Shown: positions 21,952-38,161 of the stretch, piece by piece
Numbering within the stretch: the stretch's first letter is position 1
Layout of the letters: each line of letters opens with the position of its first letter
Source: a virus
DNA: 38,161 nt
Reading direction: 5' to 3' (one strand)
Virus record (IMG/VR): IMGVR_UViG_3300037521_000201
Coordinates: 1 to 38,161 of that record
Notes under the pieces: model-generated
The model's database searches: none
What the model saw: the letters and a program-made list of their open reading frames with translations, nothing else
Told to the model about the DNA's origin: nothing
Program-made: the position numbers and the translations under genes

Positions 21952-22410
21952 TTAAATGGTTTCACTTGGTTCACTTCTTTTGACTCTGTAATCGATTTCC
22001 CATTCCATTTCAATACGACCTGGACGGGCGACAATGTTTGTAAAAAATTTTTGGTCATTGAGTAAATCGGCTTTGGTCCAACCTTTGTCCTGTAAATCGG
22101 CGTGACCGGCCTCAAGTACTCTTTGAAAGTCTTGTAATACCTTTGACAAAGCGAGCCTAGAATCTGGCTCTGTAACATTGTCCACGGTAATAATAAATTT
22201 GGCTTTGAGTGTGGCGGAATATGAATCGACCATTTGCTCATCTGGATCGAGGAAATCCTCATCCGTATAATCTGTTTTAACATTTGGATATGTTTTTGAA
22301 TTAGGTTTAAACTGATTGATATCATCATAATCAAAATTAAACCCCGTCCCAATAGACATGGCATCAATCTGTGAATCAATTTCGCTTGTAATATCATTTT
22401 TAATAGTCAT
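21952..22410 (-). CDS. Head-tail connector / tail completion protein
   Basis: A 152-aa acidic protein whose ATG overlaps the stop of the gp37-like gene by four bases. It has a long charged N-terminal part, then AKFIITVDNVTEPDSRLAL, a helix LSKVLQDFQRVLEAGHADL, and IEMEWEIDYRVKR at the end. The position between the gp37-like gene and the tail tube suggests a tail terminator or connector. No named family was identified. A competing 153-codon frame over the same bases lacks a ribosome site and has unlikely composition. Confidence 0.6.
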   Translation of the reverse strand: MTIKNDITSEIDSQIDAMSIGTGFNFDYDDINQFKPNSKTYPNVKTDYTDEDFLDPDEQMVDSYSATLKAKFIITVDNVTEPDSRLALSKVLQDFQRVLEAGHADLQDKGWTKADLLNDQKFFTNIVARPGRIEMEWEIDYRVKRSEPSETI

Positions 22411-22853
22411 TCTTGAGACTCTTCAATAGTGTTACCCATTGTGATCTGGTAAATATAATACTGGGCCTCGCGCCCTAAAAAACTGCGATCAATTGGAAAC
22501 ATGTAACTGGAATCTTCAAAGCCATCTGGTGTAAAGCCTGATAGGACTCTGAGAATTTCCTGGGATACATCGTAAATCCCCTCTTGATTCGATTGTTTCC
22601 TTAAATTTTTCTTAATAATGTTGAATTGCCATGTATAAGCGGCTTGCTGAGTAAGTACCGTTTGGTTATTACCTTCGGGTGGTTCCCAGAAACTAGATTG
22701 AAACGCAACTAAAATAGCCCCGCCTTTGTGCTTCATTTGTCCGATATAGTTATCAAAACTTTCTGGATACGATCTAATTTCAATGCTCTTATTGGGCAAT
22801 AGATCGGCCTGAAGCTTTGCTATGATCTTTTCTTCGTAGTCGTTTAAATCCAT
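22407..22853 (-). CDS. Mu gp37-like (DUF1834) tail terminator/connector protein
   Basis: A 148-aa protein. The N-terminus (LNDYEEKIIAKLQADL), then IEIRSYPESFDNYI, ILVAFQSSFWEPP, and an end with YYIYQITM follow the layout of Mu gp37/DUF1834 proteins: a helix followed by a beta sheet that closes around a ring. It follows the gp36-like gene with a one-base overlap, which is the conserved Mu order. Confidence 0.75.
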   Translation of the reverse strand: MDLNDYEEKIIAKLQADLLPNKSIEIRSYPESFDNYIGQMKHKGGAILVAFQSSFWEPPEGNNQTVLTQQAAYTWQFNIIKKNLRKQSNQEGIYDVSQEILRVLSGFTPDGFEDSSYMFPIDRSFLGREAQYYIYQITMGNTIEESQE

Positions 22854-23332
22854 TAGCAGGGCCCGTTATAATAACCGTCTAAGAAGCCTTTACCATCCGG
22901 TTGGCTTACGAATATCTGAGATTTACCGGCTGTGCTGCCTTGACCAGATCCTTTATAAATACCGGCTGTGTTAGCTGTGCTAGTTGGATCATCAATTAAA
23001 AGAGTACCGGCCTGGACCATACCAAGCTTTTTGCGAACATCCTCAATATCATCTCTAAGAACATCAGGGATCTCAAGGTTTATTCTTCTTCGATATAATT
23101 GGTAAATGGCCAGTGAAACCGACCAATCCTTAACCGCTAGAGCAACGGTAGAAGTTACGGGCAAATCATGTTTGCCTCGTAAGTATGTATTAATTTCGTT
23201 ATCTGCGCGTTCTATAGCGGAGGTAATCTTTGCGTCGTCTACGGTATCAACAGGATCAGAATCATCAGTCAGTTGAATTAAATCATCGTCTGAAAGAATC
23301 TCCTGAATATCCGATTTAGTACTGTAAGCCAC
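22853..23332 (-). CDS. Mu gp36-like (DUF1320) head-tail connector protein
   Basis: A 159-aa protein. YSTKSDIQEILSDDDLIQLTD, followed by AIERADNEINTYLRGKHDLP and DWSVSLAIYQLYRRR, is the typical all-helical DUF1320 pattern ('A...Ad..Id.yL..RY.lP'). These proteins form an adaptor ring below the portal. The C-terminal 40 residues are Gly/Ser-rich. Lies directly after the capsid gene, as in Mu-like phages. Confidence 0.85.
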   Translation of the reverse strand: MAYSTKSDIQEILSDDDLIQLTDDSDPVDTVDDAKITSAIERADNEINTYLRGKHDLPVTSTVALAVKDWSVSLAIYQLYRRRINLEIPDVLRDDIEDVRKKLGMVQAGTLLIDDPTSTANTAGIYKGSGQGSTAGKSQIFVSQPDGKGFLDGYYNGPC

Positions 23333-23353: not shown

Positions 23354-24334
23354 CTATGTTAATATTGTGTCGATCCAAAGATAACCGGCAGAATTGGCAG
23401 TAACTACTGTGCCAGTTTCTTCCATTGAATCATATACATGGCCTTTCTTTTCGTTATGCCAATAGCTCTCAGTGATACGAACTTGTTTGTTATCAAGTTT
23501 TGATCTAGTCTGAACACCGGCGTTAAGTTTTTTACGGCCAGGACCTTGAAAGGCGTATAAGAAAGCAGAACCCTTAGTATCGTTCTTTTCCCAAATGTAT
23601 TGACCTGCATAAGCATCGGTTGAACCGGCATCGGCTGTATTCATAACAGCTCCACCAACTACAACACTACCAATTTGGAGAATGTTTGCTAATGAATCGG
23701 CTGTAAGTGAATCACGGCCTACATATTTAAGCTGTTCTCTCATATCGTCAATTCGTTTGATTGCTTGCATAGTGCCGAAATCAAGCATTAATCTAAGAGA
23801 TTTAGGGTTTACACCTTCTCTTTTAAGTTTAGAAAGGGCTACATCAAAATCAGCTAAGAAAGTAGATGTAGAAGGGGCGAGCCATGAACCGGCCTGATCT
23901 TTTCCACCGGCTACACCGTCGGACCAAGTATCAGCAAAAATCGCTTCAGCAACTCTGATCTCACGACCTAAGTCTAAATCTTTTGAATTCTTTTCGATTG
24001 AATCAGTGGCTAATTCGATAGGGGGTGATTGTCCGTTAGGAATACCCGCATCTCGAAGATCTTCACGTGTGATCATATCAGAAGCCGCATATTGTTTGGT
24101 ATTGGCATCGACGGTATCACGTTCAACCTGAGTAGTTTTGATTCTAGTACCTGGCGCACGTTCTGAGGCTCCGCTTTGGAACTGTTCACCCTTGTTATAA
24201 CGTGTAATTTTTTGTTTTGGGCTCATGAGTTCAATCATGGGGAAAACTTCTTTATTGATCAATTCGCTGTCGTGAAATTTGACAGAAATATCTTGTGCGT
24301 GTCCGACTAGAACTTCTACATTTTGACCACTCAT
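23354..24334 (-). CDS. Major capsid protein (Mu T-like)
   Basis: A 326-aa protein. The block DTVDANTKQYAASDMITREDLRDAG (about 71-95, split by function) and DLGREIRVAEAIFADTWSDG mark the capsid proteins of Mu-like and related phages, and LMLDFGTMQAIKRIDD is in the central domain. The order protease/scaffold, decoration, capsid, gp36 supports the call. The fold is presumably HK97-type. Probably one of the most abundant virion proteins. Confidence 0.85.
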   Translation of the reverse strand: MSGQNVEVLVGHAQDISVKFHDSELINKEVFPMIELMSPKQKITRYNKGEQFQSGASERAPGTRIKTTQVERDTVDANTKQYAASDMITREDLRDAGIPNGQSPPIELATDSIEKNSKDLDLGREIRVAEAIFADTWSDGVAGGKDQAGSWLAPSTSTFLADFDVALSKLKREGVNPKSLRLMLDFGTMQAIKRIDDMREQLKYVGRDSLTADSLANILQIGSVVVGGAVMNTADAGSTDAYAGQYIWEKNDTKGSAFLYAFQGPGRKKLNAGVQTRSKLDNKQVRITESYWHNEKKGHVYDSMEETGTVVTANSAGYLWIDTILT

Positions 24335-24396: not shown

Positions 24397-24777
24397 TTAA
24401 GCTGTTGTGCCGCCTCTAGTTAGGTGAATAATAGAATACTTGTCTAGTGCGCTTCCACCTTCGTCAGCTTGACCCACTTCACGCTTGCCTGAAGCTGATG
24501 TAATAGCTTTACCGGCTGCGTCAGAAGCAACTACAGCCCCGTTTGCGACTGCGGCACCAGAAAGAACTCGAACTACATTACCAGAATTTTGCAAATGAAC
24601 TTCAACAGATTCGCCTTGTGCGACGGTTTTTGAAGCTACGCCCTTGATCTCTTCGCCATCACCACAGGTAACGACTTCGCCATTGGAATCCAATTTAACA
24701 AAGGTATCCGCGACAATAGCAGCGCCCGCAATGTAAGTGAGTGATTTTTCTTCTGATACTTTTCTGCCTTGTCCCAT
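24397..24777 (-). CDS. Capsid decoration protein (DUF2190)
   Basis: A 126-aa protein. The sequence is Gly/Ala/Val-rich, with AGAAIVADTFVKLDSNGEVV followed by KGVASKTVAQGESVEVHL, the alternating strand pattern of DUF2190 proteins. They trimerise on the capsid and stabilise it. It lies between the protease/scaffold and capsid genes, the usual position. Confidence 0.8.
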   Translation of the reverse strand: MGQGRKVSEEKSLTYIAGAAIVADTFVKLDSNGEVVTCGDGEEIKGVASKTVAQGESVEVHLQNSGNVVRVLSGAAVANGAVVASDAAGKAITSASGKREVGQADEGGSALDKYSIIHLTRGGTTA

Positions 24778-24840: not shown

Positions 24841-26016
24841 TTAAACTGAAGCTTTGAAAAGTCCAGGTTCTTTTTCTTGTAATTTTTTGATTGATTCGCC
24901 GTAAGTGCCACCGTCTTTTTCTTGGATAGCCGAGGCTTTTTCTTTGATTTGAGCTTCTATTGAAGCGGCTGCTTCGCTAACTTCGCCAAATACTGTGCCT
25001 GGTGTTACGCTTGCTTTCTTGTTCTCAAGGCTCAATTTGTAATTTTCTAGAGGTGTTCGAGATACTGTTTCGTCACCTTCTTTAAATTCTTGAGCGGCTT
25101 GGCCATCTAAAGCCTTAACGGTCATAAGAATAGATTGCTTTTCAGCAGGGTCGATTTTTCCATCAGAAACCAATTTTTCAGCAAAAGCGTTGTGCTCTGC
25201 GTCTTTTTTCTCAGATTCAATGGTATCAATGCTTGTTTGAAGCTCTTTGCTCTTAGCTTCTGAGGCCACAAGTTTTTCAGAAAACTCGCCTGATTCAATT
25301 GTTTTGGCTTCTAAGTCAGCTTTTAGTGAAGTGACTTCAATTTCTTGTAATTTAAATGCTGCTTCGTAATCCATTTTTTGATCCTCATTTGGGGTTTCTT
25401 TGAAAGTTTCCATTACTTTTGGTTCGGTAATTCTGGTTTGCTTAAGGTCATCTATTGAGAACTGAGATATAATACTGTCAGCCGTTTCGAGCCCTTTTTC
25501 ACCTATCATGAAATCACGCATGCTTTGAAACATTCTTCCAACCGTTCTAAGGCCGAAAGCCGCGTCCATTTCAGCAAATTCAACGTCAATTTCAGCAAAT
25601 TCGATAGTCTGAATATCTTCGCTTTCTGAATACGCGAAATCTGGCATACCTTTAACGGCAACCGGAGCACCACCAAAAAACCCAACATGCTTTAAGGATT
25701 TGTTTCCTCTAAGAGCAATTGATCGATGTTTAAAATTCTTTCTTTTTAGAGCTTCGCCAAATTCCTCTGTAATATCTGACATCCTAGCGAAAAGCTTCTT
25801 ACCCTTGCGAAATAATTCGTTTGGTTCAAACCACGCGTAAGCGGGTGAGTTTTCTTTAGGGTGACCGATTACAGCCGGAACCGAATCTTTCATTTCGTTC
25901 GTGGCTTCGATTATTTGATCTAGATCCGCTTCAGTCCACGTTTGAGTATTCCCAGCGCCATCCGTTTGCTTACCGGCTCTGAATATTTCCATTGTGACTG
26001 TTTTGGTCTTGCTCAT
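24841..26016 (-). CDS. Mu I-like capsid protease with scaffold region
   Basis: A 391-aa protein. The N-terminal 140 residues match Mu-like prohead proteases: WTEADLDQIIEATNEM, PAVIGHPKENSPAYAW (His52 probable catalytic), and HRSIALRG (His97, Ser99). A long helical, Glu/Lys-rich region from about 210 to 300 (SLKADLEAKTIESGEFSEK...) is scaffold-like. In Mu the I gene also gives the scaffold Z from an internal start. It is the first gene of the leftward structural operon. No good ribosome site precedes the ATG at 26016, and a second ATG eight codons in lacks one as well. Confidence 0.85.
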   Translation of the reverse strand: MSKTKTVTMEIFRAGKQTDGAGNTQTWTEADLDQIIEATNEMKDSVPAVIGHPKENSPAYAWFEPNELFRKGKKLFARMSDITEEFGEALKRKNFKHRSIALRGNKSLKHVGFFGGAPVAVKGMPDFAYSESEDIQTIEFAEIDVEFAEMDAAFGLRTVGRMFQSMRDFMIGEKGLETADSIISQFSIDDLKQTRITEPKVMETFKETPNEDQKMDYEAAFKLQEIEVTSLKADLEAKTIESGEFSEKLVASEAKSKELQTSIDTIESEKKDAEHNAFAEKLVSDGKIDPAEKQSILMTVKALDGQAAQEFKEGDETVSRTPLENYKLSLENKKASVTPGTVFGEVSEAAASIEAQIKEKASAIQEKDGGTYGESIKKLQEKEPGLFKASV

Positions 26017-26164
26017 TATGAAGATTAAATTAAAACAAGTTTTTTTGCGCTCCTACGACAAAACGCTAGTCAATGGCACTGAATAATTGTATACTGTAGT
26101 TAAGATTAAGAACTGCTATGAAAATCGAAAACATTTAAAGAGAGAAAGGGCATAAGGGGGTAGG
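26017..26164. other. Divergent control region between the two structural operons
   Basis: About 150 bp separating the leftward capsid/tail operon from the rightward operon. A rightward promoter can be seen at 26067-26095. No clear -35/-10 pair reads leftward toward the protease gene, so that operon may depend on an activator. The Mor-like protein is the candidate. A six-codon frame (MKIENI) at 26116-26136 has no clear ribosome site. Confidence 0.5.
26067..26095 (+). promoter_or_regulatory. Rightward promoter
   Basis: TAGTCA (26067-26072) and TATACT (26090-26095) are separated by 17 bases and match the sigma-70 consensus at four and five positions. It would drive the small ORFs, the IbrB/IbrA-like pair and possibly the downstream head genes. 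Confidence 0.5.
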
Positions 26165-26338
26165 ATGCTAGATCCGTTCACAATGCAAGAGGCCACGCCA
26201 GAGCGCGAGGCTGAAATCAGACAGAACCAGAAAGATTTTTTATTCGGTAGTGAGAATAACAATGATATGTACAAGTTCAAAGACGATAACACGCACCAGG
26301 GCAAGAATATAAAGCCTAGACGGTATAGGAGGGGGTAG
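26165..26338 (+). CDS. Small hypothetical protein (57 aa)
   Basis: The ATG at 26165 follows AAGGGGGTAGG. The frame codes for a charged, polar 57-aa protein starting MLDPFTMQEATPEREAEIR and ending in KPRRYRRG. The longer leftward frame over the same bases (26116-26409) lacks a ribosome site. It is the first gene of the rightward operon. No family was recognised. Confidence 0.55.
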   Translation: MLDPFTMQEATPEREAEIRQNQKDFLFGSENNNDMYKFKDDNTHQGKNIKPRRYRRG

Positions 26339-26341
26339 GGT

Positions 26342-26413
26342 ATGGAACTACAAAATGGCACTGGGAGAGGTTTATTTAACACACAATCTAACAGAGTATT
26401 TGAAAACAATTAA
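26342..26413 (+). CDS. Possible micropeptide (23 aa)
   Basis: ATG at 26342 is preceded by AGGAGGGGG and opens a 23-codon frame (MELQNGTGRGLFNTQSNRVF...). Its stop lies in the strong ribosome site of the IbrB-like gene (TAAGGAG), so it may couple translation of that gene. The peptide is not recognised. Confidence 0.4.
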   Translation: MELQNGTGRGLFNTQSNRVFENN

Positions 26414-26422
26414 GGAGAGAAT

Positions 26423-27574
26423 ATGGATTACAAAAGACAAGATATTAACACACTACTTTCAGATATACAAGGGTTTATGGACTCTTATGAAAGTCTAACT
26501 ACAAAAATGGAGTTTATAAACGATGTAAGAGAATATATTCATGAAAATGGGCCATTCAAAAATGAACCGGTAGATTTTGTAAGGTGGGTTGTTACAGATG
26601 ATGTAATAGCTAATGAGTATAACCCTAATAAGGTCGCACCTCCTGAGATGGAATTATTAGAAGTGAGTATAATGAATGATGGATATACTCAACCTATTGT
26701 TACATGGCCTAATAATGATAAATCAGAGGTTGTGGATGGTTTTCACAGAAGTAGGGTTGGTAGAGAGTCTGCTATTGTTAAAGAAAGGATCATGGGGTTT
26801 TTGCCAACAGTAGCTATAAGAAATGAGCAGGCAAGCAAAAATGATAGGATTGCTTCAACTATTCGTCATAATAGAGCTAGAGGTAAACATCAAGTTGATG
26901 CTATGAGTGAAATTATTTTAGAGTTAAAAAATAGAAATTGGAAAAACTCAAGAATAGCTCGTGAACTTGGTATGGATGAAGAGGAAATATTAAGGCTTTG
27001 TCAGATTACAGGTTTACAAGATGTTTTTTCAGATGATGATTTTTCTAAGTCATGGATAGCTAGTGATTCTACTGAAAGTCCTTTTGAAGAGTTAACAGAT
27101 GATCTAACTAATGAGGAAGTTGAAAAATATCGTACAGTAAATACTAATGATCCTGATAGAATATTCCATACATTTGATAAATGGGAGTGCCATAAGGCCG
27201 GATTCTACGCTTCTAAATTTGAAGGGAAGAAAAAAGATGAATGTGAACAATCTTATGCAAATTTTCTATCGAATGATACTAAATTCAAAGAAGCTCTTAA
27301 CGGTGTTATTTCTAAATGGAAACATTCTTGTGAACATTATTTAACTAATAAATCAATGAATAGAATAGCTTGGTTAGGTCAGGCAGCTATGTGTTATGGT
27401 ACAGGAATACCTAGTGTATTTTGCGCCGGATTTAATAGACTCACACCTGATGAACAAGAAAGGGCTAATAATATTGCTTTAGAGTATTTAAACATTTGGC
27501 TTAAAAACAATAATAGGAACGAAGTTGAAATAGAAGAAGCTTTATCACTTGGCCGTCAAGTTAACATTTATTAA
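26423..27574 (+). CDS. IbrB-like ParB-domain protein
   Basis: A 383-aa protein with TAAGGAGAG before its ATG. Residues about 57-160 are a ParB/sulfiredoxin-type domain: VAPPEMELLEVSIMNDGYTQPI, then VVDGFHRSRV (103-112), then TIRHNRARGKHQ (147-158). HTH-like NSRIARELGMDEEEILRLCQ follows (about 174-193). The C-terminal 170 residues are less familiar. Such ParB-like proteins are commonly paired with PAPS-reductase-like IbrA in phages and other mobile elements; IbrAB was named for regulating immunoglobulin-binding proteins in Escherichia coli. Nearby codons look AT-richer than the head genes. Its biochemical target is unknown. Confidence 0.8.
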   Translation: MDYKRQDINTLLSDIQGFMDSYESLTTKMEFINDVREYIHENGPFKNEPVDFVRWVVTDDVIANEYNPNKVAPPEMELLEVSIMNDGYTQPIVTWPNNDKSEVVDGFHRSRVGRESAIVKERIMGFLPTVAIRNEQASKNDRIASTIRHNRARGKHQVDAMSEIILELKNRNWKNSRIARELGMDEEEILRLCQITGLQDVFSDDDFSKSWIASDSTESPFEELTDDLTNEEVEKYRTVNTNDPDRIFHTFDKWECHKAGFYASKFEGKKKDECEQSYANFLSNDTKFKEALNGVISKWKHSCEHYLTNKSMNRIAWLGQAAMCYGTGIPSVFCAGFNRLTPDEQERANNIALEYLNIWLKNNNRNEVEIEEALSLGRQVNIY

Positions 27575-27587
27575 GGAGAAATGAAAA

Positions 27588-28805
27588 ATGGCAACAAAAT
27601 TATATCAAGATACTAATGTATTAGACGCTGCAAAAGATCGTATTTCTAAGGCTTTTGATGACTTCGAGAGGGTCTATATATCCTTTTCAGGAGGAAAAGA
27701 CAGCTCTGTGATGACTCATTTAGTTATGGAAGAAGCAATAAGAAGGGGTAGAAAAGTTGGTTTACTTATAATCGACCTGGAGGCTCAATATGTAGATACT
27801 ATTGACCATGTAGAAGTAATGGCTGAAATGTATAAAGACCATATAGATTTACACTGGTTTTGTGGCGAACTTCTTTTAAGAAATGCTGTGAGTAATTATG
27901 AGCCTCGCTGGATTTGTTGGGATGAAGAGAAAAAAGATATGTGGGTTAGAGATAAACCGAAACTAGCTAGGGATTTAAACGATTACCCTTTTTATGTTCC
28001 AAAGATGGAATTTGAAGAATTAATGGTAATTTTTGGTGAATGGTACTCTCAAGGTAAATCAACAGGCGCCTTTATTGGTATTCGTTCAGATGAGAGCTTG
28101 CATAGATACAGGGCTATTGTTAGCCGTAAAGATGGTTTAATGCACAGGGATTACAAGTGGACTACTAAGGTAAAAAAGAATCTTTTTAATCTATACCCTA
28201 TTTATGATTGGAAAACTGAGGATATTTGGATTTATCATGGAAAATATAACGATAAGCCTCATAATGCTGTTTATGATAAAATGAATATGGCCGGTGTTAA
28301 GTTAAGCCAACAAAGACTTTGCCAACCCTATGGGGATGACCAAAGAAGGGGTTTATGGTTATATCATATACTAGAGCCTGATACTTGGTATAAATTAATT
28401 AATAGAGTTAATGGTGTTAATTCTGGTGCTTTATACGTACAAGAAAACGGTAATGTTATGGGATACCATAAAATAACCAAGCCTGAGAACCATACTTGGA
28501 AAAGTTTTTGTAATATGCTTTTATCTACAATGCCAAAGAAAACAGGTGTTCATTATAGGAGTCGTTTCCAAAAATTTATTTCAGGTTGGCAAGATCGGGG
28601 TTATTTAACGATACCACAAGAGGCCCCTTTGGAGCTTGAAAGTAAGTGTTGGGTTCCTTCATGGCGTAGAATGTGTAGGGTTATTTTAAGAAATGATTAT
28701 TGGTGCAAGGGATTGGGTCAAACTCAGCCTTTATCAGATGCTTATGGTAAATTTAAGGATATTCGAGCAAAGCGAAAAATTGTAAAGGAGCTTGAGGGGG
28801 TATGA
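27588..28805 (+). CDS. IbrA-like PAPS-reductase/ATP-pyrophosphatase family protein (DUF3440-like)
   Basis: A 405-aa protein beginning 14 bp after the IbrB-like gene. The PP-loop SGGKDSS is at residues 34-40. The family's later blocks are present: TGAFIGIRSDESLHRYR, YPIYDWKTEDIWIYHG, and SQQRLCQPYGDDQRRGL. The C-terminus (CRVILRNDYWCKGLGQTQP) fits DUF3440-type proteins. PP-loop enzymes adenylate or reduce a substrate. DndC, the phosphorothioation protein, belongs to the same superfamily, but no other dnd genes are here. The two-gene pairing with the ParB-like protein is the firm point. Confidence 0.85.
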   Translation: MATKLYQDTNVLDAAKDRISKAFDDFERVYISFSGGKDSSVMTHLVMEEAIRRGRKVGLLIIDLEAQYVDTIDHVEVMAEMYKDHIDLHWFCGELLLRNAVSNYEPRWICWDEEKKDMWVRDKPKLARDLNDYPFYVPKMEFEELMVIFGEWYSQGKSTGAFIGIRSDESLHRYRAIVSRKDGLMHRDYKWTTKVKKNLFNLYPIYDWKTEDIWIYHGKYNDKPHNAVYDKMNMAGVKLSQQRLCQPYGDDQRRGLWLYHILEPDTWYKLINRVNGVNSGALYVQENGNVMGYHKITKPENHTWKSFCNMLLSTMPKKTGVHYRSRFQKFISGWQDRGYLTIPQEAPLELESKCWVPSWRRMCRVILRNDYWCKGLGQTQPLSDAYGKFKDIRAKRKIVKELEGV

Positions 28806-28840
28806 CTAAAAAAACCAAAATTTTAAAAGAAGGGGAGTAG
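28802..28840 (+). CDS. Possible 12-aa peptide (coupling ORF)
   Basis: ATG overlaps the IbrA stop (ATGA) and opens MTKKTKILKEGE before TAG. The end of this frame contains the AAGGGGAG ribosome site of the next gene, so it may exist only to carry ribosomes forward. Very short; coding is uncertain. Confidence 0.25.
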   Translation: MTKKTKILKEGE

Positions 28841-28841
28841 G

Positions 28842-29120
28842 ATGGAAGAAATAAAAGAAATAATTTTGAGTCACTGCCAGGGGATAGCTTACCCAGAATT
28901 TGATCTTGAAGATTTGAATGTGATGGTAAAAGAAATCAATGACCGTTATACTAATGTACAGAGCCAAGAGCTAACCAAAGCAAAGGAAGAAATCGAGAGG
29001 TTGAAGAAATGGAAAGATTGGTTAGAGGCTCATAAAGATTCACATGATATTTATTGTAATCATAGAGATGGTCGGGTTTGTAACTGTGGCCTTGACGAAC
29101 TACTAAAAGAGGTGAAGTGA
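28842..29120 (+). CDS. Hypothetical coiled-coil protein with C-terminal Cys/His motif
   Basis: A 92-aa protein with AAGGGGAGTAGG before the ATG. The middle is a charged helix (LTKAKEEIERLKKWKDWLEA), and the C-terminus has YCNHRDGRVCNCGLDELL. That C-x-H..CxCGLD pattern recurs in small phage proteins and may bind a metal. Function unknown. First in a string of small genes between IbrA and the terminase. Confidence 0.6.
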   Translation: MEEIKEIILSHCQGIAYPEFDLEDLNVMVKEINDRYTNVQSQELTKAKEEIERLKKWKDWLEAHKDSHDIYCNHRDGRVCNCGLDELLKEVK

Positions 29121-29497
29121 TGGTAAAGGAAACACCGAAAATTCTTTATAAAGCCTTAAGACAATATGCTCACAATACTAGGGTAGGGGATTTATTCGCT
29201 GGGTTTGATTATGATGAAACTGTAAAAATAGTCGAATCCCTAGAAAAGATTTTAGCCGATACCATAGTAGACTCCAATGACCAAAGGCATAATTTTGTAA
29301 TGTCAGAGATTAAGGTTAAATCCCAGGCCAAGGAAATAGAAGGGCTGAAGGAGTTGGTTAAATTGGCTGTTCAATGGTTTGGCGATGAGATAGAGAATGG
29401 AAACGGAAATATTGAATATGATGAGTTAGAACTAATCTATAAAAAACTCCTATCCAAACCAACAGAACCAGACACCACAGACAAGGGAGGGGGGTAG
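29120..29497 (+). CDS. Hypothetical protein (125 aa)
   Basis: The ATG at 29120 (TGATG overlap with the previous gene) lies six bases after AGAGGTG and is preferred to the GTG at 29117. The protein is helical and acidic, with DYDETVKIVESLEKILADT and a Pro/Thr/Gly tail (TEPDTTDKGGG). No family was recognised. Confidence 0.6.
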   Translation: MVKETPKILYKALRQYAHNTRVGDLFAGFDYDETVKIVESLEKILADTIVDSNDQRHNFVMSEIKVKSQAKEIEGLKELVKLAVQWFGDEIENGNGNIEYDELELIYKKLLSKPTEPDTTDKGGG

Positions 29498-29569
29498 ATG
29501 GAAGAATACAAACTAATATTATTAGTCGTGGCCATGTTAGCTTTTATAATTGCAGTGGTTTTAAAATGA
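29498..29569 (+). CDS. Single-span membrane micropeptide (23 aa)
   Basis: ATG at 29498 follows AAGGGAGGGGGG. The product, MEEYK followed by about 17 hydrophobic residues and a Lys, is almost entirely one membrane helix. The TGA overlaps the ATG of the next gene. The ribosome site is among the strongest in the window, which argues against chance. Confidence 0.5.
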   Translation: MEEYKLILLVVAMLAFIIAVVLK

Positions 29570-29760
29570 AAAGCACCGTATTTAAACCAAACAACGGAGA
29601 AGGAATGGAAGAAACTTTTGAACAATGGCTAGAAAGCTTAAATCAGTACGCTAAAGATTTAGGATGGCCACCAAACTTTGACGATTGCGAAGAGACTAGA
29701 GAGTGTTACGAAGATGGTGAAACGAAAGCTCAAGCATTTGGTGATATGTTTAGGAATTAA
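29566..29760 (+). CDS. Hypothetical acidic protein (64 aa or 51 aa)
   Basis: The first ATG (29566) overlaps the micropeptide stop. A second in-frame ATG at 29605 is preceded by GGAGAAGGA and may be the true start, giving a 51-aa acidic helical protein (METFEQW-type opening: MEETFEQWLESLNQYAKD). No family was recognised. Confidence 0.5.
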   Translation: MKSTVFKPNNGEGMEETFEQWLESLNQYAKDLGWPPNFDDCEETRECYEDGETKAQAFGDMFRN

Positions 29761-29806
29761 CCAAAGAGGAATAAATGACACCCACTAACAAAGAGGAGCT
29801 GTAGAG

Positions 29807-30019
29807 ATGGATGACTATAGTAAGAGAAGAATAACTCTAAATGAGGAGATTTCAATAGCCTTTTATCATTGGGATCACACAGAAAACGAGCTTTCGATTG
29901 AGGGAGAGGTTGGCGGATGCTATTTCTGTTCAGGCACTAATATTGATATTGCAATCACCAAAGAGAAAGCGGTTGAGTTAATTGAAATTCTTAATGGATT
30001 TTTAACCCCCAAAGACTAA
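29807..30019 (+). CDS. Hypothetical protein (70 aa)
   Basis: A 70-aa acidic protein with AAGAGGAGCTG before the ATG. A nine-codon frame at 29775-29804 ends just ahead and holds that ribosome site, so translation may be coupled. CYFCSG in the middle gives one CxxC. No family was recognised. Confidence 0.55.
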   Translation: MDDYSKRRITLNEEISIAFYHWDHTENELSIEGEVGGCYFCSGTNIDIAITKEKAVELIEILNGFLTPKD

Positions 30020-30034
30020 GGAGAGATGAAGAGA

Positions 30035-30244
30035 ATGGATATAGACGCACTAAGACAAGCACACGAAAAGCTAAAGAGGAAAAGTCTGAAGCAAAGGGAC
30101 CGCATCAAGGAACTGGAAGAAGGATTAGAAGGGTTAATTAAATTTAGCGAAGATGAAAAGCAAGAGGGGATGGTGGGTTATAACTCCGGCCTGATAATCA
30201 TGAGTTTAGCAGTATCTAGACAATTTCCTGCCTACTCTTTGTAA
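30035..30244 (+). CDS. Hypothetical coiled-coil protein (69 aa)
   Basis: AAGGAG lies about ten bases before the ATG at 30035; an in-frame ATG at 30026 is too close to it. The N-terminal half is strongly charged and helical (AHEKLKRKSLKQRDRIKELEE), likely a coiled coil, and the C-terminal half is more hydrophobic. No family was recognised. Confidence 0.5.
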   Translation: MDIDALRQAHEKLKRKSLKQRDRIKELEEGLEGLIKFSEDEKQEGMVGYNSGLIIMSLAVSRQFPAYSL

Positions 30245-30268
30245 AACAACAATTAAACGAGGATGAAT

Positions 30269-30562
30269 ATGACTGAAAGAACAACTAAAATTGAGATGGA
30301 ACTAACCCACAATGAATATCTTAGATACAAAGAAATGGCCAAAGCATTAGATAGCCCTAATCCATACAATTTGATTTGCGCTCTTTACGAAACAGAACAG
30401 AACAGGATACAAATAGGGGATTTCTTTTACTCTACAGAACAAAACGGGGTAGATATAAGGAAATGTGATAATCAAAATCAAGCTGATAGGCTCAATAGTA
30501 TTGGTCAGTTTAAAAAGTTACCCGAAAATTTTGACTTTTTATCCTTAATTGAGGGCAAATGA
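30269..30562 (+). CDS. Hypothetical protein (97 aa)
   Basis: ACGAGG lies six bases before the ATG at 30269, which is preferred over an in-frame ATG at 30263. The 97-aa product begins MTERTTKIEMELTHNEYLR and has mixed composition. Its TGA overlaps the next ATG. No family was recognised. Confidence 0.55.
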   Translation: MTERTTKIEMELTHNEYLRYKEMAKALDSPNPYNLICALYETEQNRIQIGDFFYSTEQNGVDIRKCDNQNQADRLNSIGQFKKLPENFDFLSLIEGK

Positions 30563-30726
30563 ATAAGCGAGAGATGCAAGAAATATCTATGAAATTCGCA
30601 CCGAGGCCAGAGGATATTAATTTTATTAATTATCCATCAGACAGGGAGCAAGTCCAGGCGGTTGTGAAAAAGGGGCCAAGAGCCCCCCAATATCTTTCGA
30701 CATTAACCTCCAATAAATTGGATTGA
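30559..30726 (+). CDS. Small hypothetical protein (55 aa)
   Basis: ATG at 30559 overlaps the stop of the previous gene (ATGA), with GAGGG just before. It encodes a basic, Pro-containing 55-aa protein (MNKREMQEISMKFAPRPEDI...). A GGGGC-GCCCC hairpin lies inside the gene near 30676. No family was recognised. Confidence 0.5.
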   Translation: MNKREMQEISMKFAPRPEDINFINYPSDREQVQAVVKKGPRAPQYLSTLTSNKLD

Positions 30727-30741
30727 TAATAAGGTACTATA

Positions 30742-30945
30742 ATGACTAAAAAAATGCCACCCAGAACAGGAACTATTTTGCAAATATACCAATGTGAGAT
30801 TATAGACGTGTTTCACTCGCAAATTGATGCTGTAAGAAAAACCGGTGTAACCGCAAATCTTTTAAGTCAGGCTCTAAACGGTATTAACGAATCCTGTGGA
30901 GGTTACGAATGGAAGTACGCTAAGGGAATAGACGGATTGTTTTAA
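30742..30945 (+). CDS. Small protein with NUMOD1-like DNA-binding motif
   Basis: A 67-aa protein. Residues about 15-60 follow the NUMOD1 pattern found beside homing endonucleases: QCEIIDVFHSQIDAVRKTG, then LLSQALNGINESCGGYEWKY, with the typical conserved Ala, Gly and GGY.WKY. No nuclease domain is attached or nearby. It may be the orphaned DNA-binding part of an intron-type endonuclease reused as a small regulator. Family call by pattern. Confidence 0.55.
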   Translation: MTKKMPPRTGTILQIYQCEIIDVFHSQIDAVRKTGVTANLLSQALNGINESCGGYEWKYAKGIDGLF

Positions 30946-31008
30946 AAAAAGTCTTAGCCCGTAAAAACGCGATAGAATCGACACTTTTAGATGATAACAA
31001 GGGGAATT

Positions 31009-31209
31009 ATGATTATCAATTCAGGCTTAAAAGACAAAAACAATCGTGAAATTTTAGACGGCCATACAATAAAAGCTACCGGCATAAAAGATAATCTGGG
31101 GCGTGAATATAAAATATCATTTGAAAAAGGGTGTTTTACGGCTAAATGCTATAAATCTGAAACGTGCCTTGGTAATTTGAACCTTTCGGATTTCGAGATT
31201 CTTGATTAA
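31009..31209 (+). CDS. YopX-like small protein
   Basis: A 66-aa protein. AAGGGG lies before the ATG at 31009, favouring it over an in-frame start 18 bases upstream. The opening NSGLKDKNNREILDGHTIKAT resembles the N-terminus of YopX-family phage proteins ('D.ngkeIyeGD.vk'), but the protein is shorter than typical. Function of the family is unknown. Confidence 0.4.
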   Translation: MIINSGLKDKNNREILDGHTIKATGIKDNLGREYKISFEKGCFTAKCYKSETCLGNLNLSDFEILD

Positions 31210-31260
31210 AAAACCGCTTTGAACTCCGCCAAAATATCGTAATTTAACAGTAAAGGGAAA

Positions 31261-31767
31261 TTGAGCAAATCTATGCAAGAGCTAGATCCAAATAAAGAGA
31301 TCATTTCCGAAGAGGAAAAGAAAACTCGCCTAGCGATTTTTGATGATAATCATGTAGCTATAACTCAGGCTTATTGGGGCTTTATTGAGCAAAATAACAG
31401 GATGCCCACTTATTCATGGGTAGCCGAGGAAACGGGCCTTGCGCTTAATACCGTTCGCACTCATCTAAAAAGCTACAAAGAGAAAGATCTCAAGGATCAA
31501 GTAGAGAAATTCAAAATTTTTAGCGATGACGTAATGTTAGGCCAAATAAAGAGGGCCAGAGAGGGTGGTCACGGTTCAACGGATGCGGCTAAACTGTATT
31601 ATCAAATAGTCCATAACTTCAAACCTGGATTAGAGTTAAGTATCAAGAAAGGCACAGATTATGGCAAAATGACCCTAGATGAGCTTACAGAGCTACAAAA
31701 GCAGAAGGTAGATAAATTTGAATCAAAACTCCTCCGACTCGCAAGAGATCGCGATACTCCAAGCTGA
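31261..31767 (+). CDS. terS: Terminase small subunit candidate
   Basis: A 168-aa protein with a TTG start after AAAGGGA. Residues about 30-75 contain a helix-turn-helix: AYWGFIEQNNRMPTYSWVAEETGLALNTVRTHLKSY. Helical segments follow, suited to oligomerisation. It lies directly upstream of the large terminase and overlaps it by 50 bases, as small subunits do. It would recognise phage DNA for packaging. Identification rests on fold and position. Confidence 0.65.
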   Translation: MSKSMQELDPNKEIISEEEKKTRLAIFDDNHVAITQAYWGFIEQNNRMPTYSWVAEETGLALNTVRTHLKSYKEKDLKDQVEKFKIFSDDVMLGQIKRAREGGHGSTDAAKLYYQIVHNFKPGLELSIKKGTDYGKMTLDELTELQKQKVDKFESKLLRLARDRDTPS

Positions 31768-33229
31768 AACCGAGCAAATCAATTTAGAGATTGAGCGGCG
31801 TATTTGTCGCGCTTCTTTGTACGGTACTGTTCGGACGTTTTGGGATGTGATAATACCAGACCCTTTTCGCTATAACTGGCATATTGAATATTTGTGCAAT
31901 GAGATGCAAAAAGTTGGGCAATGGGTGATAGATCGTCAACCGGCTGAATATGATTTGATAATAAATGTACCCCCTGGTACTACAAAATCGACAATTTGCT
32001 CTGTTTTCTTCCATGTTTGGCTTTGGATTAATGCGCCGTGGGTTCGTATGATCTCAGCTTCACACACAAATGATTTGGCTATTGAGCACTCTATTTTATC
32101 TAGAGATGTGATGAAATCGCAGAAATTTAGAACTTTATTTCCGCATAGGGTGAATTTTAAGTCAGATCAAGACAATAAGACCTATTATAGAAATGTTCGA
32201 GGCGGGTCTCGGGTGGCCACTTCGGTTGGTGGCAATATCATGGGTAAGCATGGTCATATAATTACGATAGATGATCTAATCGACCCAAAAAAGACCGCTT
32301 CGGACGTTGAGAGGGAAAAGGCGAATGATTATATATCTAGGACCTTATCTACTCGAAAAGTTGACAAAGAGAATACGCCCACGGTTTTGATAATGCAGCG
32401 ATTACACGAACTGGACCCCACTGGGTTTTTATTGTTTAAGGCCGAAGAATCAGGCAAGAGGATAAAACACATTTGCTTGCCCGGTGATGATACTTTGGGC
32501 AATATTAAGCCTCATTTATTGAAATTCATGTATAAAGACGGTCTTTTAGATCCGAATAGGTTGAATCGAAACGCTTTAAAGATAATGGAAACCGATCTCG
32601 GAGAATCTGATTTTACAGGCCAGGTTAGGCAGTCGCCACAGGCCCCTGGCGGTAATATTTTGAAAAGGGAGTGGTTTAAGTGGTATGAGGAATTGCCGAA
32701 AGAAAGGCCTATTTCAAAGATTCAGAGTTGGGATACTGCATTTAAAAAGACCAAAACTTCTGCTTATAATTGCGGATTGACGTTTTATGAGTATAGGGAT
32801 GGGTATTATCTAGAGGATGCGATTTTTGAAAAGATGGAGTATCCAGAGCTTAAGGCTTCAATATTAGCTTATGAAACTGCTCACAGCCCTAATTTAGTTT
32901 TAATTGAAGATAAGGCCACGGGCACCCCGATTATACAAGAATTGACCCGAGATAATAAAATCAACTTCATACCAATTTTACCGGATGGAGATAAGGTTCA
33001 AAGGGCTCATGCAAGTTCTAGTACTGTCAAGGCCGGAAATGTTTATATTCGGAGCAATGCAAAATGGACTCATAAATTAATAAATCAATTGATACTTTTT
33101 CCAAATTGCCAGATTAAAGATATTATGGATGCTTTCTCACAGTACATAAATTATATCAGAGATAACCCCAGTGTCCCGGTAACTAGAATGGTTGGCGGTG
33201 GGAAGTCTAAAGTCACTAGAAATTACTAA
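31718..33229 (+). CDS. terL: Terminase large subunit
   Basis: A 503-aa protein with a TTG start after AGAAGG. The ATPase Walker A-like PPGTTKST is at residues 85-92, and Walker B, IITIDDLID, at about 181-189. The nuclease begins with SWDTAFKKTKTSAYN (about 337) and includes VLIEDKATGTPI (about 394), both typical of the RNase H-fold domain of TIGR01630-like terminases. It translocates DNA into the prohead and cuts it. Length is normal and all motifs look intact. Confidence 0.95.
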   Translation: MNQNSSDSQEIAILQAETEQINLEIERRICRASLYGTVRTFWDVIIPDPFRYNWHIEYLCNEMQKVGQWVIDRQPAEYDLIINVPPGTTKSTICSVFFHVWLWINAPWVRMISASHTNDLAIEHSILSRDVMKSQKFRTLFPHRVNFKSDQDNKTYYRNVRGGSRVATSVGGNIMGKHGHIITIDDLIDPKKTASDVEREKANDYISRTLSTRKVDKENTPTVLIMQRLHELDPTGFLLFKAEESGKRIKHICLPGDDTLGNIKPHLLKFMYKDGLLDPNRLNRNALKIMETDLGESDFTGQVRQSPQAPGGNILKREWFKWYEELPKERPISKIQSWDTAFKKTKTSAYNCGLTFYEYRDGYYLEDAIFEKMEYPELKASILAYETAHSPNLVLIEDKATGTPIIQELTRDNKINFIPILPDGDKVQRAHASSSTVKAGNVYIRSNAKWTHKLINQLILFPNCQIKDIMDAFSQYINYIRDNPSVPVTRMVGGGKSKVTRNY

Positions 33230-33238
33230 TAGGTTATT

Positions 33239-34711
33239 ATGACAAATCCAAGAATCCGAGATAAAGATTTTAAAGTAAGCGACTCGAAATACAGTAGGGG
33301 TAACTCAATAGATGCTTTTGCCACGGCTGACGTATTGCCCAATCCCGATCCAGTATTAAACACTCAAAACAGTTTGGCTACTTGGCAGAATTTTAGAAAT
33401 ATCTTTTGGGACCCACATTTGACCGCTGTTATAGCTTCAAGGAAATCGGTTACTTTATCTAAAAAGTGGTATATCGAGGGCGGTAAATCACCGTCTAGAG
33501 TACGTAAATTCATTGAGAAAAATTTTGAAAACCTTGATATTCATAGGGCCACTGAAGAAATTTTAGACGCTCCTTTTTTCGGCATGCAGGCAATGGAGCC
33601 TATTTGGGGTAGCCCTGAAGGTGTCGAAGGTGAGAACAAGATATTTTGCAAAGAGTTCACTGGTCGCCCTGCTTGGTGGTTTCAATACGACAAAGAGAAT
33701 AAGCTTAGATTCAGATCAAAAGATAATTTCTGGCCTGGTGATCCTGTCGAAGATATGAGTTTAATCGTGGCTAGGAATAACCCAAAGTATGAGAATCCTT
33801 ATGGAGAGGCTCTTCTAAGTAAAATTTATTGGTCGATTAACTTCAAGAAAGCTGCTTTTAAATATTGGATCGAGTTCGCCGAAAAGAACGGTTCGCCCTA
33901 CTCTATTGGTAAAGTACCTAGAAATGCGGGCGAAGCTGAATACGACGAACTCTTAGAAAGGCTGCAAGAATTGGTTAACGGATCTTCAGCCGTAATTCCT
34001 GATGACACTAGCGTCGAGTTTATTTCGTCTGGAAGCAAATCAAGCGCTGATATCTACAAAGATTTAATGAACGCCGCGAATCAAGAAATTTCAAAGGCAA
34101 TTCTAGGCCAAACCCTTACAACAGAGTCAGGTGAGAAAGGATCTAGGGCGCTAGGCCAGGTGCATGATAACGTAAGGCTTGATATCGCCGAAGCCGATGA
34201 AATAATGGCCGAAACTTGCTTTAATGTGCTTATCCGGTGGATTGTAGATATAAATTTTGGTCCAAATGTTGTGGCTCCTACGTTTAAATATGAGCATGAA
34301 AAGGATATTAAAAAGGATCTAGCCGAAAGGGATAAAATATTAAGTGAATTAGGTGTTAAGTTTGATGCCGAATATTTTAAAGAAATTTATAATTTGGCCG
34401 ATAATCACTTCACAATGGTTGAGCCTGTTGTAACTGAGTTACAAGATGAGCCAGAGTTTCGAGAGGCTTCTGAATTTGAAGATCAGAAAGCTGTGGATAA
34501 TTTTATTAATGGCTTGACTAATAAAGAGCTTCAAAAGGATTCAGAGTTTTTAGAGCCAATAATAAAAATGATTGAGAAAGCTAGTTCATTTGAAGAGGCT
34601 CAAGGCGCTTTAATAAGCCTGTTTCCTGAAATTAGGCCAAAACGATTAGAAAAGTTATTAGGCAGGGCTCTTTTTTCTACCCAAAGCCTAACCCGCAACA
34701 CAGAGGATTAA
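33239..34711 (+). CDS. Portal protein (Mu gp29-like, DUF935)
   Basis: A 490-aa protein. The DUF935 blocks are clear: WDPHLTAVIASRKSVTLSK, LDAPFFGMQAMEPIW, ARNNPKYENPYGEALLSKI, and the later LGQTLTTESGEKGSRALGQV (about 290-310). The protein forms the dodecameric portal at one capsid vertex. It starts nine bases after terL and is followed by the F-like gene. Confidence 0.95.
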   Translation: MTNPRIRDKDFKVSDSKYSRGNSIDAFATADVLPNPDPVLNTQNSLATWQNFRNIFWDPHLTAVIASRKSVTLSKKWYIEGGKSPSRVRKFIEKNFENLDIHRATEEILDAPFFGMQAMEPIWGSPEGVEGENKIFCKEFTGRPAWWFQYDKENKLRFRSKDNFWPGDPVEDMSLIVARNNPKYENPYGEALLSKIYWSINFKKAAFKYWIEFAEKNGSPYSIGKVPRNAGEAEYDELLERLQELVNGSSAVIPDDTSVEFISSGSKSSADIYKDLMNAANQEISKAILGQTLTTESGEKGSRALGQVHDNVRLDIAEADEIMAETCFNVLIRWIVDINFGPNVVAPTFKYEHEKDIKKDLAERDKILSELGVKFDAEYFKEIYNLADNHFTMVEPVVTELQDEPEFREASEFEDQKAVDNFINGLTNKELQKDSEFLEPIIKMIEKASSFEEAQGALISLFPEIRPKRLEKLLGRALFSTQSLTRNTED

Positions 34712-35458
34712 TTGGCAATCCCAGGTAAAATAATCGTCGACGCTTCAAAAGTTAGCCCAGAGGAGGCTATTAAAATTTTTGATAAGCAAGGGATCAAGAT
34801 ATCAAAGACTGCCGAAGAAACTAGAAAAGCGGTAGAGGAAAAGGTCTTTGCAATTACCCAAGACGTTCAAATGAGCGTGGTTCAAGATGTTCGAGACGCT
34901 TTGTCAAAAGCCTTGAAAGATGGGCAAACTTTTGAAACTTTTCAGAAGGATATTAAAAATACTTTGGCCAAAAAGGGTTGGACGGGCGAAAGGACGGCTA
35001 TAATCGGAGGTGAAGAGGTTAAGGTGCTTACCACCCCACACCGTTTAAGGACCATATACAGGACTAATATTCAATCAGCTCTAAATGCCGGTAGATTTGA
35101 ACGTCAGATTGATAACGCGGACGATAGGCCCTTCTTAATGCTAATTGACGGTATTATCGAGAACTCTAGGCGATCACACAAAACCCAATCAGGATCAATA
35201 CAGCCGATCACTTCACAATTTTGGAAAGCTCCTAATTCTTGGTACCCTCCAAACGGCTTTAACTGTACTGGTCGAACCAGATCACTCACAAGAGCAGAAG
35301 CCAAAAGCCGAGGCGTTAAGATAAATAACCGATCATTAAAGCCAGATCCAGGGTTCGGATTTAACCCCGCCACCGAGTCTTTTAAGCCAAAAAAAGAAGA
35401 TTTTGATCAAGATATTTGGGACGCGGGCCAGGATTTAGAACCGAGCGTTTTGAAATGA
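34712..35458 (+). CDS. Mu F-like minor head protein (head morphogenesis)
   Basis: A 248-aa protein with a TTG start directly after the portal stop, behind AGAGG. TIYRTNIQSALNAGRF and then SWYPPNGFNCTGRTRSLTRAE (about 175-195) are hallmarks of the phage Mu F/SPP1 gp7 family. The Cys-containing block near NCTGRTRS is conserved. It is likely a minor capsid protein associated with the portal and DNA ejection. Confidence 0.9.
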   Translation: MAIPGKIIVDASKVSPEEAIKIFDKQGIKISKTAEETRKAVEEKVFAITQDVQMSVVQDVRDALSKALKDGQTFETFQKDIKNTLAKKGWTGERTAIIGGEEVKVLTTPHRLRTIYRTNIQSALNAGRFERQIDNADDRPFLMLIDGIIENSRRSHKTQSGSIQPITSQFWKAPNSWYPPNGFNCTGRTRSLTRAEAKSRGVKINNRSLKPDPGFGFNPATESFKPKKEDFDQDIWDAGQDLEPSVLK

Positions 35459-35979
35459 TAAAGGTCACCACAAAATCAACAGAGGTGCAAGCTTTATTCA
35501 AGCAACTAGGTTTTAATGCTGAAAAACTAAAACCCGCTTTGGTTAAAATTGGCGGAATGTTAGAAGATGCAAGCGAAAAAGCTTTTAATCGTCAGGGTCC
35601 AGGTTGGCCCGCACTAAAAAAATCAACAAAAGAAAAACTATCTAGGACCGGAAAAGGCGGTAAGACCCTACAAAGATCAGGCCAACTGGCCTCTTCTGTT
35701 TCTTCTCAAATACGCGGAAATACTGTTTTTATAGGTTCTAACTTAGAATATGCCAGGGTCCATCAAAAAGGCGGAACCATAAACCATCCAGGCGGAACAA
35801 AATACAAGTTCATAGGGCCTGGAAAAATCGCTTATTTGAAAAAAGGCGCTAAAAAATTTAATGGAATCACAAAACCTCATAAAATAAAAATTCCAAAGCG
35901 TGAATATTTAATACTTTCAGAGGCAGAGCTTAGAAAGTCTAATTTCATTTTAAGCAAACACATGGTAAGGGGAACATGA
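35455..35979 (+). CDS. Mu G-like virion morphogenesis / tail completion protein
   Basis: A 174-aa protein. The ATG at 35455 overlaps the F-like stop (ATGA) and is preferred to an upstream in-frame ATG. AFNRQGPGWPALKKSTKEKL, LQRSGQLASSVSSQI and VFIGSNLEYARVHQKGGTI match the phage virion morphogenesis family (Mu G, P2 S). It helps join head to tail. Confidence 0.9.
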   Translation: MIKVTTKSTEVQALFKQLGFNAEKLKPALVKIGGMLEDASEKAFNRQGPGWPALKKSTKEKLSRTGKGGKTLQRSGQLASSVSSQIRGNTVFIGSNLEYARVHQKGGTINHPGGTKYKFIGPGKIAYLKKGAKKFNGITKPHKIKIPKREYLILSEAELRKSNFILSKHMVRGT

Positions 35980-36242
35980 AGTCATTCGTAAAAAAATGGA
36001 ATAGGGACGATATACCAAACAAAGGTTTGAAAGAAGTTTCGGACGTTATCGGTATAAATGCGGTAAAAGCTTTATTAGTCAAGTGCCCAGGTATGACTTT
36101 CCACATTCCAAAAAAATATTATTCTCAATTGGATGATAGTTTTTTGAAAAAGCACAGGAAAGAAAAAGCAACCTGGCTTGCCCACAAACTAGGGTTATCA
36201 GTCAGAACGATTTATCGAAAATTACAAAAATTAGCTGATTGA
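35976..36242 (+). CDS. Mor-like transcription activator
   Basis: An 88-aa protein. MTFHIPKKYYSQLDDSFLKKH (about 47-67) and the helix-turn-helix AHKLGLSVRTIYRKLQKL (about 70-87) fit the Mor/C family, which in Mu activates middle and late promoters lacking a -35 box. It is shorter than Mor (129 aa). It overlaps the G-like gene by four bases, and its end overlaps the convergent NinG gene by 12 bases. The late leftward operon shows no -35 box, so Mor-like control is plausible. Confidence 0.75.
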   Translation: MKSFVKKWNRDDIPNKGLKEVSDVIGINAVKALLVKCPGMTFHIPKKYYSQLDDSFLKKHRKEKATWLAHKLGLSVRTIYRKLQKLAD

Positions 36243-36665
36243 CTTATCTCGCTTCATGGATTCAACCCTGTTTGAGTAGAATTTTAAGTGGATCTCTAAC
36301 TCTTCAACGGTAGTCCTTACAAATTGTTTAGATAATTGCCTTAATAATTCTGGGGTACCAATATCATAGGTTTTAGTTAAAAAAGCCTCGTATTGTTCTA
36401 GATTGCCCCCTAGCCTACAATTACAGTTTTCGCATTGAGGATGACAGTTTTTTTCCATCCATCTAGTGGAAATATTCCAACGGTTTACAAAATGCCCGTT
36501 TTGCATACGGTCCCAAGAATCAATTCTATTGCAAGTGCAGCACTTAGTAAAACCCCATTCATCGGCATTGAATAGCCTAATGTACTGGGAAAAAACGGTA
36601 TCTAGTCGCTTTTCTAGGGCTTTCTTGTGTATTTTAGTGATCTTAGGGTCCATCCTCTGAGCCAC
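36231..36665 (-). CDS. ninG: NinG-like recombination endonuclease (Rap)
   Basis: A 144-aa protein starting at a GTG (36665), or at an ATG five codons in. FTKCCTCNRIDSWDRMQNGHF, NCHPQCENCNCRLGG and YDIGTPELL match NinG/Rap, with the Cys/His sites of a metal-binding fold. Rap resolves Holliday junctions and D-loops in phage recombination. It is last in its operon, and overlaps the endolysin gene by 52 bases. Confidence 0.85.
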   Translation of the reverse strand: MAQRMDPKITKIHKKALEKRLDTVFSQYIRLFNADEWGFTKCCTCNRIDSWDRMQNGHFVNRWNISTRWMEKNCHPQCENCNCRLGGNLEQYEAFLTKTYDIGTPELLRQLSKQFVRTTVEELEIHLKFYSNRVESMKRDKSIS

Positions 36666-38002: not shown

Positions 38003-38161
38003 TTTATCCTCAGTTATTTAAAATTTATATTGCCAAAATATACTTTTATTGTCAGTACCTAGTTATAAATATTATTAAGCGCGTATAGGCTCGAATAAGA
38101 CGTTTTGGTTTTTTAATACACACAAACACCCTAAGCTCATTTAACCGGCTTCAGCGTTCTG
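37976..38161. repeat. Terminal direct repeat, right copy
   Basis: 186 bp matching 1-186 except at two transitions. Joining the ends gives a circle in which the early operon (5728 to 166) runs on past this region to the acidic, lysis and NinG genes (38002 to 36231), all leftward. Confidence 0.95.
38027..38055 (-). promoter_or_regulatory. Candidate promoter of the acidic-gene/lysis operon (right copy)
   Basis: The same CTGACA-17-CAATAT pair as at 52-80, here in the copy that lies directly before the complete 116-aa gene. The predicted start of transcription is about 15-20 bases before the ATG. Confidence 0.5.

Follow-up and report, generated by a model that had tools for sequence, protein, structure and literature searches.

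The complete IMG/VR virus record IMGVR_UViG_3300037521_000201, 38,161 nucleotides (nt) long and hereafter called the window, has been analyzed with regard to its Mu-type head gene module, which is arranged in two arms of opposite orientation. The ends of the record overlap (positions 1-186 with 37976-38161, 126 nt of which are exact, with 2 mismatches in 186), so that the map closes as a circle of about 37,975 bp, as expected for a circular or terminally redundant genome, and the closing point is traversed by the metagenomic contigs G003 and G005 and by further contigs. On this circle the rightward arm extends from 26423 to 36242, and the leftward arm starts at 26016, takes in the tail genes and passes over the record end to reach 36231. 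The order in the rightward arm is TerS-like gene, large terminase gene (TerL), portal, F, G and Mor-like gene, and in the leftward arm I-like protease, DUF2190/cement protein, capsid, gp36, gp37 and tail genes (Table 1).

Gene identities were confirmed with Pfam or PHROGs, those of the protease and the capsid by PHROGs alone, and the set of Mu-type head proteins (portal, F, G, I, gp36 and gp37) is present. The opposed directions described in an original prediction made from the letters of the window, with portal, F and G running rightward to 35979 and protease, DUF2190, capsid, gp36 and gp37 running leftward from 26016, were borne out by these family assignments. The single-strand head order of Mu-like phages was not found in the window, and reversal of 26.0-36.24 kb would produce, by coordinates, the order TerS-TerL-portal-F-G-(Mor)-I-capsid. 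Neither a DDE transposase nor a B-type ATPase was detected with PHROGs in 40 of the 58 listed open reading frames (ORFs, at least 80 amino acids) of the window, the remaining 18 having at most 172 amino acids. Replication genes of another kind were found in the window (DnaD-like, Sak4-like and NinB-like). The guanine-cytosine (GC) skew changes its sign between the arms and tracks the coding strand in both, for which reason its use for dating a rearrangement was rejected.

Table 1. Features of the two arms, of the spacer between them and of the right boundary, in positions of the window.
Feature	Coordinates	Strand	Evidence and remarks
Tape measure protein; tail genes carry on leftward	17075..19630	-	phrog_2335, 3.5e-54
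gp37-like protein	22407..22853	-	PF09646, 4.5e-13
gp36-like head-tail adaptor	22853..23332	-	PF07030, 1e-21; phrog_195
Major capsid protein	23354..24334	-	phrog_1005, 4.4e-37; no Pfam match; 59% identical in G006
DUF2190-type cement/decoration protein	24397..24777	-	PF09956, 6.8e-10; phrog_673, 2.1e-18
I-like head maturation protease, opening the leftward arm	24841..26016	-	phrog_976, 1.7e-59; no Pfam family above cut-off
Left part of the inter-arm spacer, candidate control region	26017..26150	.	Block adjoining the protease start; 15-mer at 26055
Inter-arm region with variable cargo	26423..31209	+	ParB-like 26423-27574; PAPS reductase/DUF3440 27588-28805; small ORFs
Probable small terminase (TerS), from its position	31261..31767	+	Directly 5' of TerL; only weak family matches
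Large terminase TerL	31718..33229	+	phrog_38, 3.1e-84
Mu-type portal	33239..34711	+	Portal_Mu PF06074, 6.8e-90
Mu F-like minor head protein	34712..35458	+	Phage_Mu_F PF04233, 1.7e-11; phrog_220, 4.1e-51
Mu G-like neck/tail completion protein	35416..35979	+	PF05069, 8.3e-21; phrog_26, 1.8e-26
Mor-like small DNA-binding protein, closing the rightward arm; candidate late activator	35976..36242	+	
NinG-like gene, right boundary	36231..36665	-	PF05766, 2.5e-12

The gene order had been attributed to an evolutionary inversion, an active switch or a misassembly. The junctions between the arms were compared in 10 other contigs from 8 metagenome records, which are 91-100% identical to the window in the aligned parts, and some of those from one record may be pieces of the same genome. 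Of these contigs, 6 extend over the left junction, 6 over the right and 2 (G003 and G005) over both; each contig aligns on one strand only, with none of the 10 in reversed order. Collinearity with the window is preserved in G003 and G005 except for differing or missing patches, and the sequence between the junctions varies. The same two arms were found in G006 (which carries locus L027), a complete circular relative of 42,591 bp with a 114-nt end repeat, whose identity to the window is 59% for the capsid, 58% for the portal, 52% for TerL, 41% for G and 37% for the protease, the latter at the same place and on the same strand. The arms of G006 are separated by a gap of 0.2-0.3 kb, depending on whether the ORF start or the start of the TerS-like similarity is taken, and its Mor-like gene, 52% identical to that of the window, also stands after G and faces a convergent gene. 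The layout is therefore at least as old as the split between the window and G006, and the divergent order shared by these relatives argues against a recent inversion. As the window is a metagenomic contig, a misassembly could be suspected; its probability is considered close to nil, since the same junctions are present in contigs of other metagenome records with differing sequence between them and a relative whose capsid is 59% identical has the layout as well.

An active switch inverting the packaging arm, which is suggested by the geometry only, was judged highly improbable on several grounds. Besides the lack of reversed contigs, the highest-scoring ungapped inverted match of the two boundary regions in the window has a score of 12, a value that 82 of 200 shuffled pairs attain (the corresponding numbers being 175 of 200 for G005 and 65 of 200 for L027), in agreement with the earlier statement that no long inverted repeat is present. 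No site-specific recombinase or transposase was found with PHROGs in the 40 of 58 listed ORFs, nor a site-specific recombinase among the 30 ORFs scanned with Pfam, and the right boundary falls within overlapping convergent genes, the NinG-like gene and the Mor-like gene sharing 12 nt. The inverted repeat I4 (25949-25972 and 35951-35974, 75%), located at both boundaries, was discarded, since its score is reached by 82 of 200 shuffles and the best inverted matches in G005 and L027 sit elsewhere.

The origin of the layout has been approached by comparison with phages of canonical Mu order. Five metagenomic relatives (L028-L032, portals 34-38% identical) carry portal, F and protease on one strand and, among the matches listed, the same holds for portal and protease in 12 of the 14 phage records that match both, the other two being large cyanophages with portal and protease about 15 kb apart. 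A portal tree was constructed from 21 rows cut to 540 residues and rooted at the midpoint with no outgroup; L021 and L022, which end before the junctions, and the partial L034 are unlabelled rows. The window, G006, L021 and L022 form in this tree a starred clade among canonical-order phages, Hankyphage (Bacteroides phage jmh43_hp) and Porphyromonas phage010a form a pair adjoining the canonical-order phage lotta8-2, and Salinibacter phage M31CR41-2 lies apart on a long branch, so that the starred branches force three layout changes. Because the window clade sits among canonical-order phages, it is likely that the canonical Mu order was rearranged in an ancestor, and we infer the direction of the layout change from the midpoint-rooted tree. 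With respect to the other loci, L023-L026 match in TerL only and show no layout; L033 and L051-L058 (portal and F, with G also in L054, L055, L057 and L058) and L050 (F and G) were counted as neither layout, as no protease was found in them by profile; L042 carries protease to gp37 on one strand, with no junction found in its stretch; and no protease was found in the 3.3 kb of L034, the one short relative that a scan of genome contigs yielded, which comes from a Kapaibacterium metagenome-assembled genome (MAG).

In the protease comparison, the profile of the window clade detected 9 of the 16 other proteases, each belonging to a canonical-order phage (L029, 5.2e-48; B3, 6.3e-38; KP12, 9.9e-38; and six more). 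At an E value of 10 it misses the other 7, which are those of Hankyphage, the Porphyromonas phage, the Salinibacter phage, the canonical lotta8-2, D3112, Mushu and a Meiothermus phage. In the protease tree, built without Hankyphage, the Porphyromonas phage, the Salinibacter phage and lotta8-2 and with the profile-unmatched Meiothermus phage, Mushu and D3112, the window and G006 group together (93/99, not starred), within a starred set that also includes 9 canonical rows. In the Pseudomonas phage Komp_PAO1_1 (L062, 5046-6291), a protease-like frame is open on the plus strand and the deposited long gene lies on the minus strand, where it has probably been mis-called.

The terminase points to another lineage than the head proteins. 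Among 12 other TerL proteins compared, that of the window matches only those of G006 and Cellulophaga phage phi17:1 (phmmer 1.5e-107 for the latter), with no match to the 10 remaining ones at E 10, and the best matches in a wider phage search were from Croceibacter and Cellulophaga phages, with about 40% identity; for Komp_PAO1_1 and D3112, TerL was taken by position, the genes being annotated as hypothetical proteins. The TerL of KP12 matches 4 of the 6 canonical-type loci searched, L028-L031 (41-53%), and does not match L032 and L033. As judged from these sequence comparisons, both the rearrangement and a terminase change separate the window clade from its canonical relatives. If 26.0-36.24 kb had simply been inverted in an ancestor, with the head and packaging block left intact and no linked module exchange, this would account for the canonical order obtained by coordinates on reversal and for the presence of portal, F and protease on one strand in canonical relatives. 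However, such an inversion oversimplifies the change, since the terminase in the arm belongs to another lineage and is not of the kind present in these relatives, and the segment also includes the cargo genes of 26.4-31.2 kb, which are not head genes; it was rated as unlikely. The inversion originally proposed was thus retained as a rearrangement relative to the canonical Mu order, on the basis of the portal tree, and abandoned as a plain flip of an intact block, on that of the terminase.

Divergent layouts in other phages of Bacteroidota raise the question of a shared origin, and the divergent layout could be ancestral in Bacteroidota phages with Mu-type heads, with a common ancestor for the window clade and Hankyphage. 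This would agree with the divergent layout of Hankyphage, the Porphyromonas phage and the Salinibacter phage, with the nearest TerL proteins being those of Cellulophaga and Croceibacter phages, and with the origin of L034 from a Kapaibacterium MAG; furthermore, the number of changes on the tree cannot distinguish gain from loss. However, the approximately unbiased (AU) test rejects a single clade of all five divergent portal rows (p 9.9e-50) as well as a clade that unites Hankyphage and the Porphyromonas phage with the window group (p 0.005, a group named after the tree had been seen), and lotta8-2, which stands beside Hankyphage on the portal tree, has canonical order. The missing protease match at E 10 in Hankyphage, the Porphyromonas phage and the Salinibacter phage also speaks against it, although this is a weak point because the profile also misses the canonical lotta8-2, D3112, Mushu and Meiothermus phage proteases. 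Shared ancestry of the layout was consequently regarded as having a small probability, and the layout of the window clade was probably derived apart from that of the other divergent phages.

Kinship to the Hankyphage group, named as candidate Alisviridae (PMC10367356), was accordingly not found, there being no TerL match, a rejected portal clade and no protease match, the last being a weak test. Hankyphage and Porphyromonas phage010a resemble the window in having TerS-TerL-adaptor-portal-neck opposed to protease-capsid-tail across one intergenic region, and differ in their annotated transposition genes, in the endolysin and holin after the capsid, and in the lack of similarity found to the TerL and the protease of the window. 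Salinibacter phage M31CR41-2 carries a gp29-type portal on one strand and gp36, protease and gpT capsid on the other, as in the window, whereas its TerL lies apart on the capsid strand and its protease is annotated as ClpP-class. The Mu/B3-type phages (B3, phiSHP3 and KP12) and L028-L031 share with the window a homologous portal and an I-type protease, with F and G matches in most of them, and differ in the single-strand order and the other terminase family. Cellulophaga phage phi17:1 shares the TerL (about 40% identical), in contrast to its portal and capsid, which are annotated with other families (PF04860 and PF05065), and to its head genes, which lie on one strand. Two small opposite-strand genes are located just upstream of the protease in lotta8-2 (L060 11501-12176) and in phi17:1 (L071 15409-15998), both of canonical order, near the joint where the order of the window splits.

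Phage P2 places, like the window, TerL and portal on one arm and scaffold and capsid on the other, read outward, with P-Q and O-N-M-L diverging from adjacent promoters and an annotated activator site (3057-3087) between them. The P2 activator is Ogr. P2 differs in that TerS (M) sits with the capsid, and the window differs from P2 in its Mu-type head and its Mor-like gene. The order of the window is thus less anomalous than the original prediction supposed, since annotated phages already carry such a split. A variable placement of the head genes has been reported for transposable prophages of Leptospira (PMC8705779). Among the titles and abstract openings listed in searches of open-licence literature, none describes the divergent Mu-type head order.

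With regard to control signals, the 140 nt upstream of the protease yielded a local alignment score of 23 between the window and G006, reached by 3 of 2000 letter shuffles. A 15-mer in this region has a single occurrence (at most 2 mismatches) in each of the window, G003, G005 and the L027 stretch, always in the corresponding position, the first three being near copies of one another. The Mor-like gene matches phrog_836, 'late transcriptional activator', with 8.8e-8. Two divergent late transcripts are suggested by the outward reading of both arms from a short region in G006, the conserved block 5' of the protease and the Mor-like gene in the same place.

The explanation that we consider probable is that the two-arm layout is stable and old, derives from an ancestral break of the canonical order and works as two divergent late transcripts. 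According to this explanation, the two-arm layout is fixed in a lineage that has a Mu-type head and in which no transposition genes were found among the scanned ORFs of the window, one arm grouping packaging and portal-vertex genes and the other shell and tail genes. The canonical Mu order would have been broken between G and I in the ancestor of the clade, both arms, like those of P2, would be read outward from a shared region around 26.0-26.4 kb, here as late transcripts, and the Mor-like protein may activate both.

Several observations weigh against parts of this explanation. The TerL of L051, a locus with Mu-type portal and F, weakly matches the window-type TerL (E 8.6e-4), and the terminase families may not be cleanly split. 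Counts of changes on an unrooted tree leave gain and loss indistinguishable, and five portal rows are long branches, that of the Salinibacter phage above all. The Mor-like assignment of 35976-36242 is weak as judged from sequence, the Pfam Mor score being 19.2 bits, below the cut-off of 24.9, and its alignment giving a single match against PDB, with E 0.035. The stretch upstream of the TerS-like gene showed no conservation between the window and G006, its alignment score of 11 being attained in 1466 of 2000 shuffles. Promoter- and terminator-like sites occur at the junctions about as often as expected by chance, and about 5 kb of variable genes part the arms in the window. Given these variable genes and the lack of conservation 5' of the TerS-like gene, a shared control site is a candidate only.

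The slot between the arms differs among relatives, as it comprises 26347-28828 in the window, 28289-30590 in G003, 18900-19748 in G005 and only a short spacer in G006. G003 carries there a truncated ParB and a gene that, according to our own reading of its sequence, is cytosine-methyltransferase-like, and G005 another small gene, with the ParB-like and PAPS reductase genes unmatched by DNA alignment; neither of these two genes has a match in G006 by tblastn. In the rightward arm, L021 and L027 carry TerS-like relatives with 33-34% identity in the corresponding position. Allelic variation of the G-like gene was seen at 35607-35891, where L002 and L045 are identical to the window; L003, L005, L007 and G005 carry an allele with about 59-60% protein identity, and the G003 copy is cut by the contig end. 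In L034 a Mor-like gene (2508-2786, 22% identical) follows portal-F-G on the opposite strand, convergent with G. In the leftward arm, the capsid query gave no match among phages at 1e-5. The tape measure region (17362-20378) has no DNA alignment in G003 and L014, where only the protein ends match (45% and 63%), and the copy of G005 is 93% identical across its length. A protein of 1101 amino acids encoded at 7981-11286 has no PHROGs or Pfam match at E 0.01, and a 28% identical relative lies in the tail region of G006.

A split of this kind is already known, as annotations show it in Hankyphage and the Porphyromonas phage, a variant of it in the Salinibacter phage and a functional equivalent in P2; the noteworthy aspect of the window is the foreign terminase together with a break at the same joint. 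With the suspicion of a misassembly or a switch removed as a false alarm, a divergent head layout can be stable in more than one lineage with Mu-type heads, and the window clade offers a concrete case for studying how the ratio of packaging to shell proteins is set in phages. A broader proposal, which we advance only tentatively and hold to be rather doubtful, is that Mu-type head clusters switch repeatedly between one-strand and split order, each time splitting between the portal/neck and the protease/capsid genes into a packaging/portal arm and a shell/tail arm that are read outward, in this lineage with terminase replacement and a presumed loss of transposition. If these were independent gains, a recurrent advantage would shape phage head operons, for example if a single divergent control region served to balance low copy numbers of portal and terminase against a high copy number of the capsid protein.

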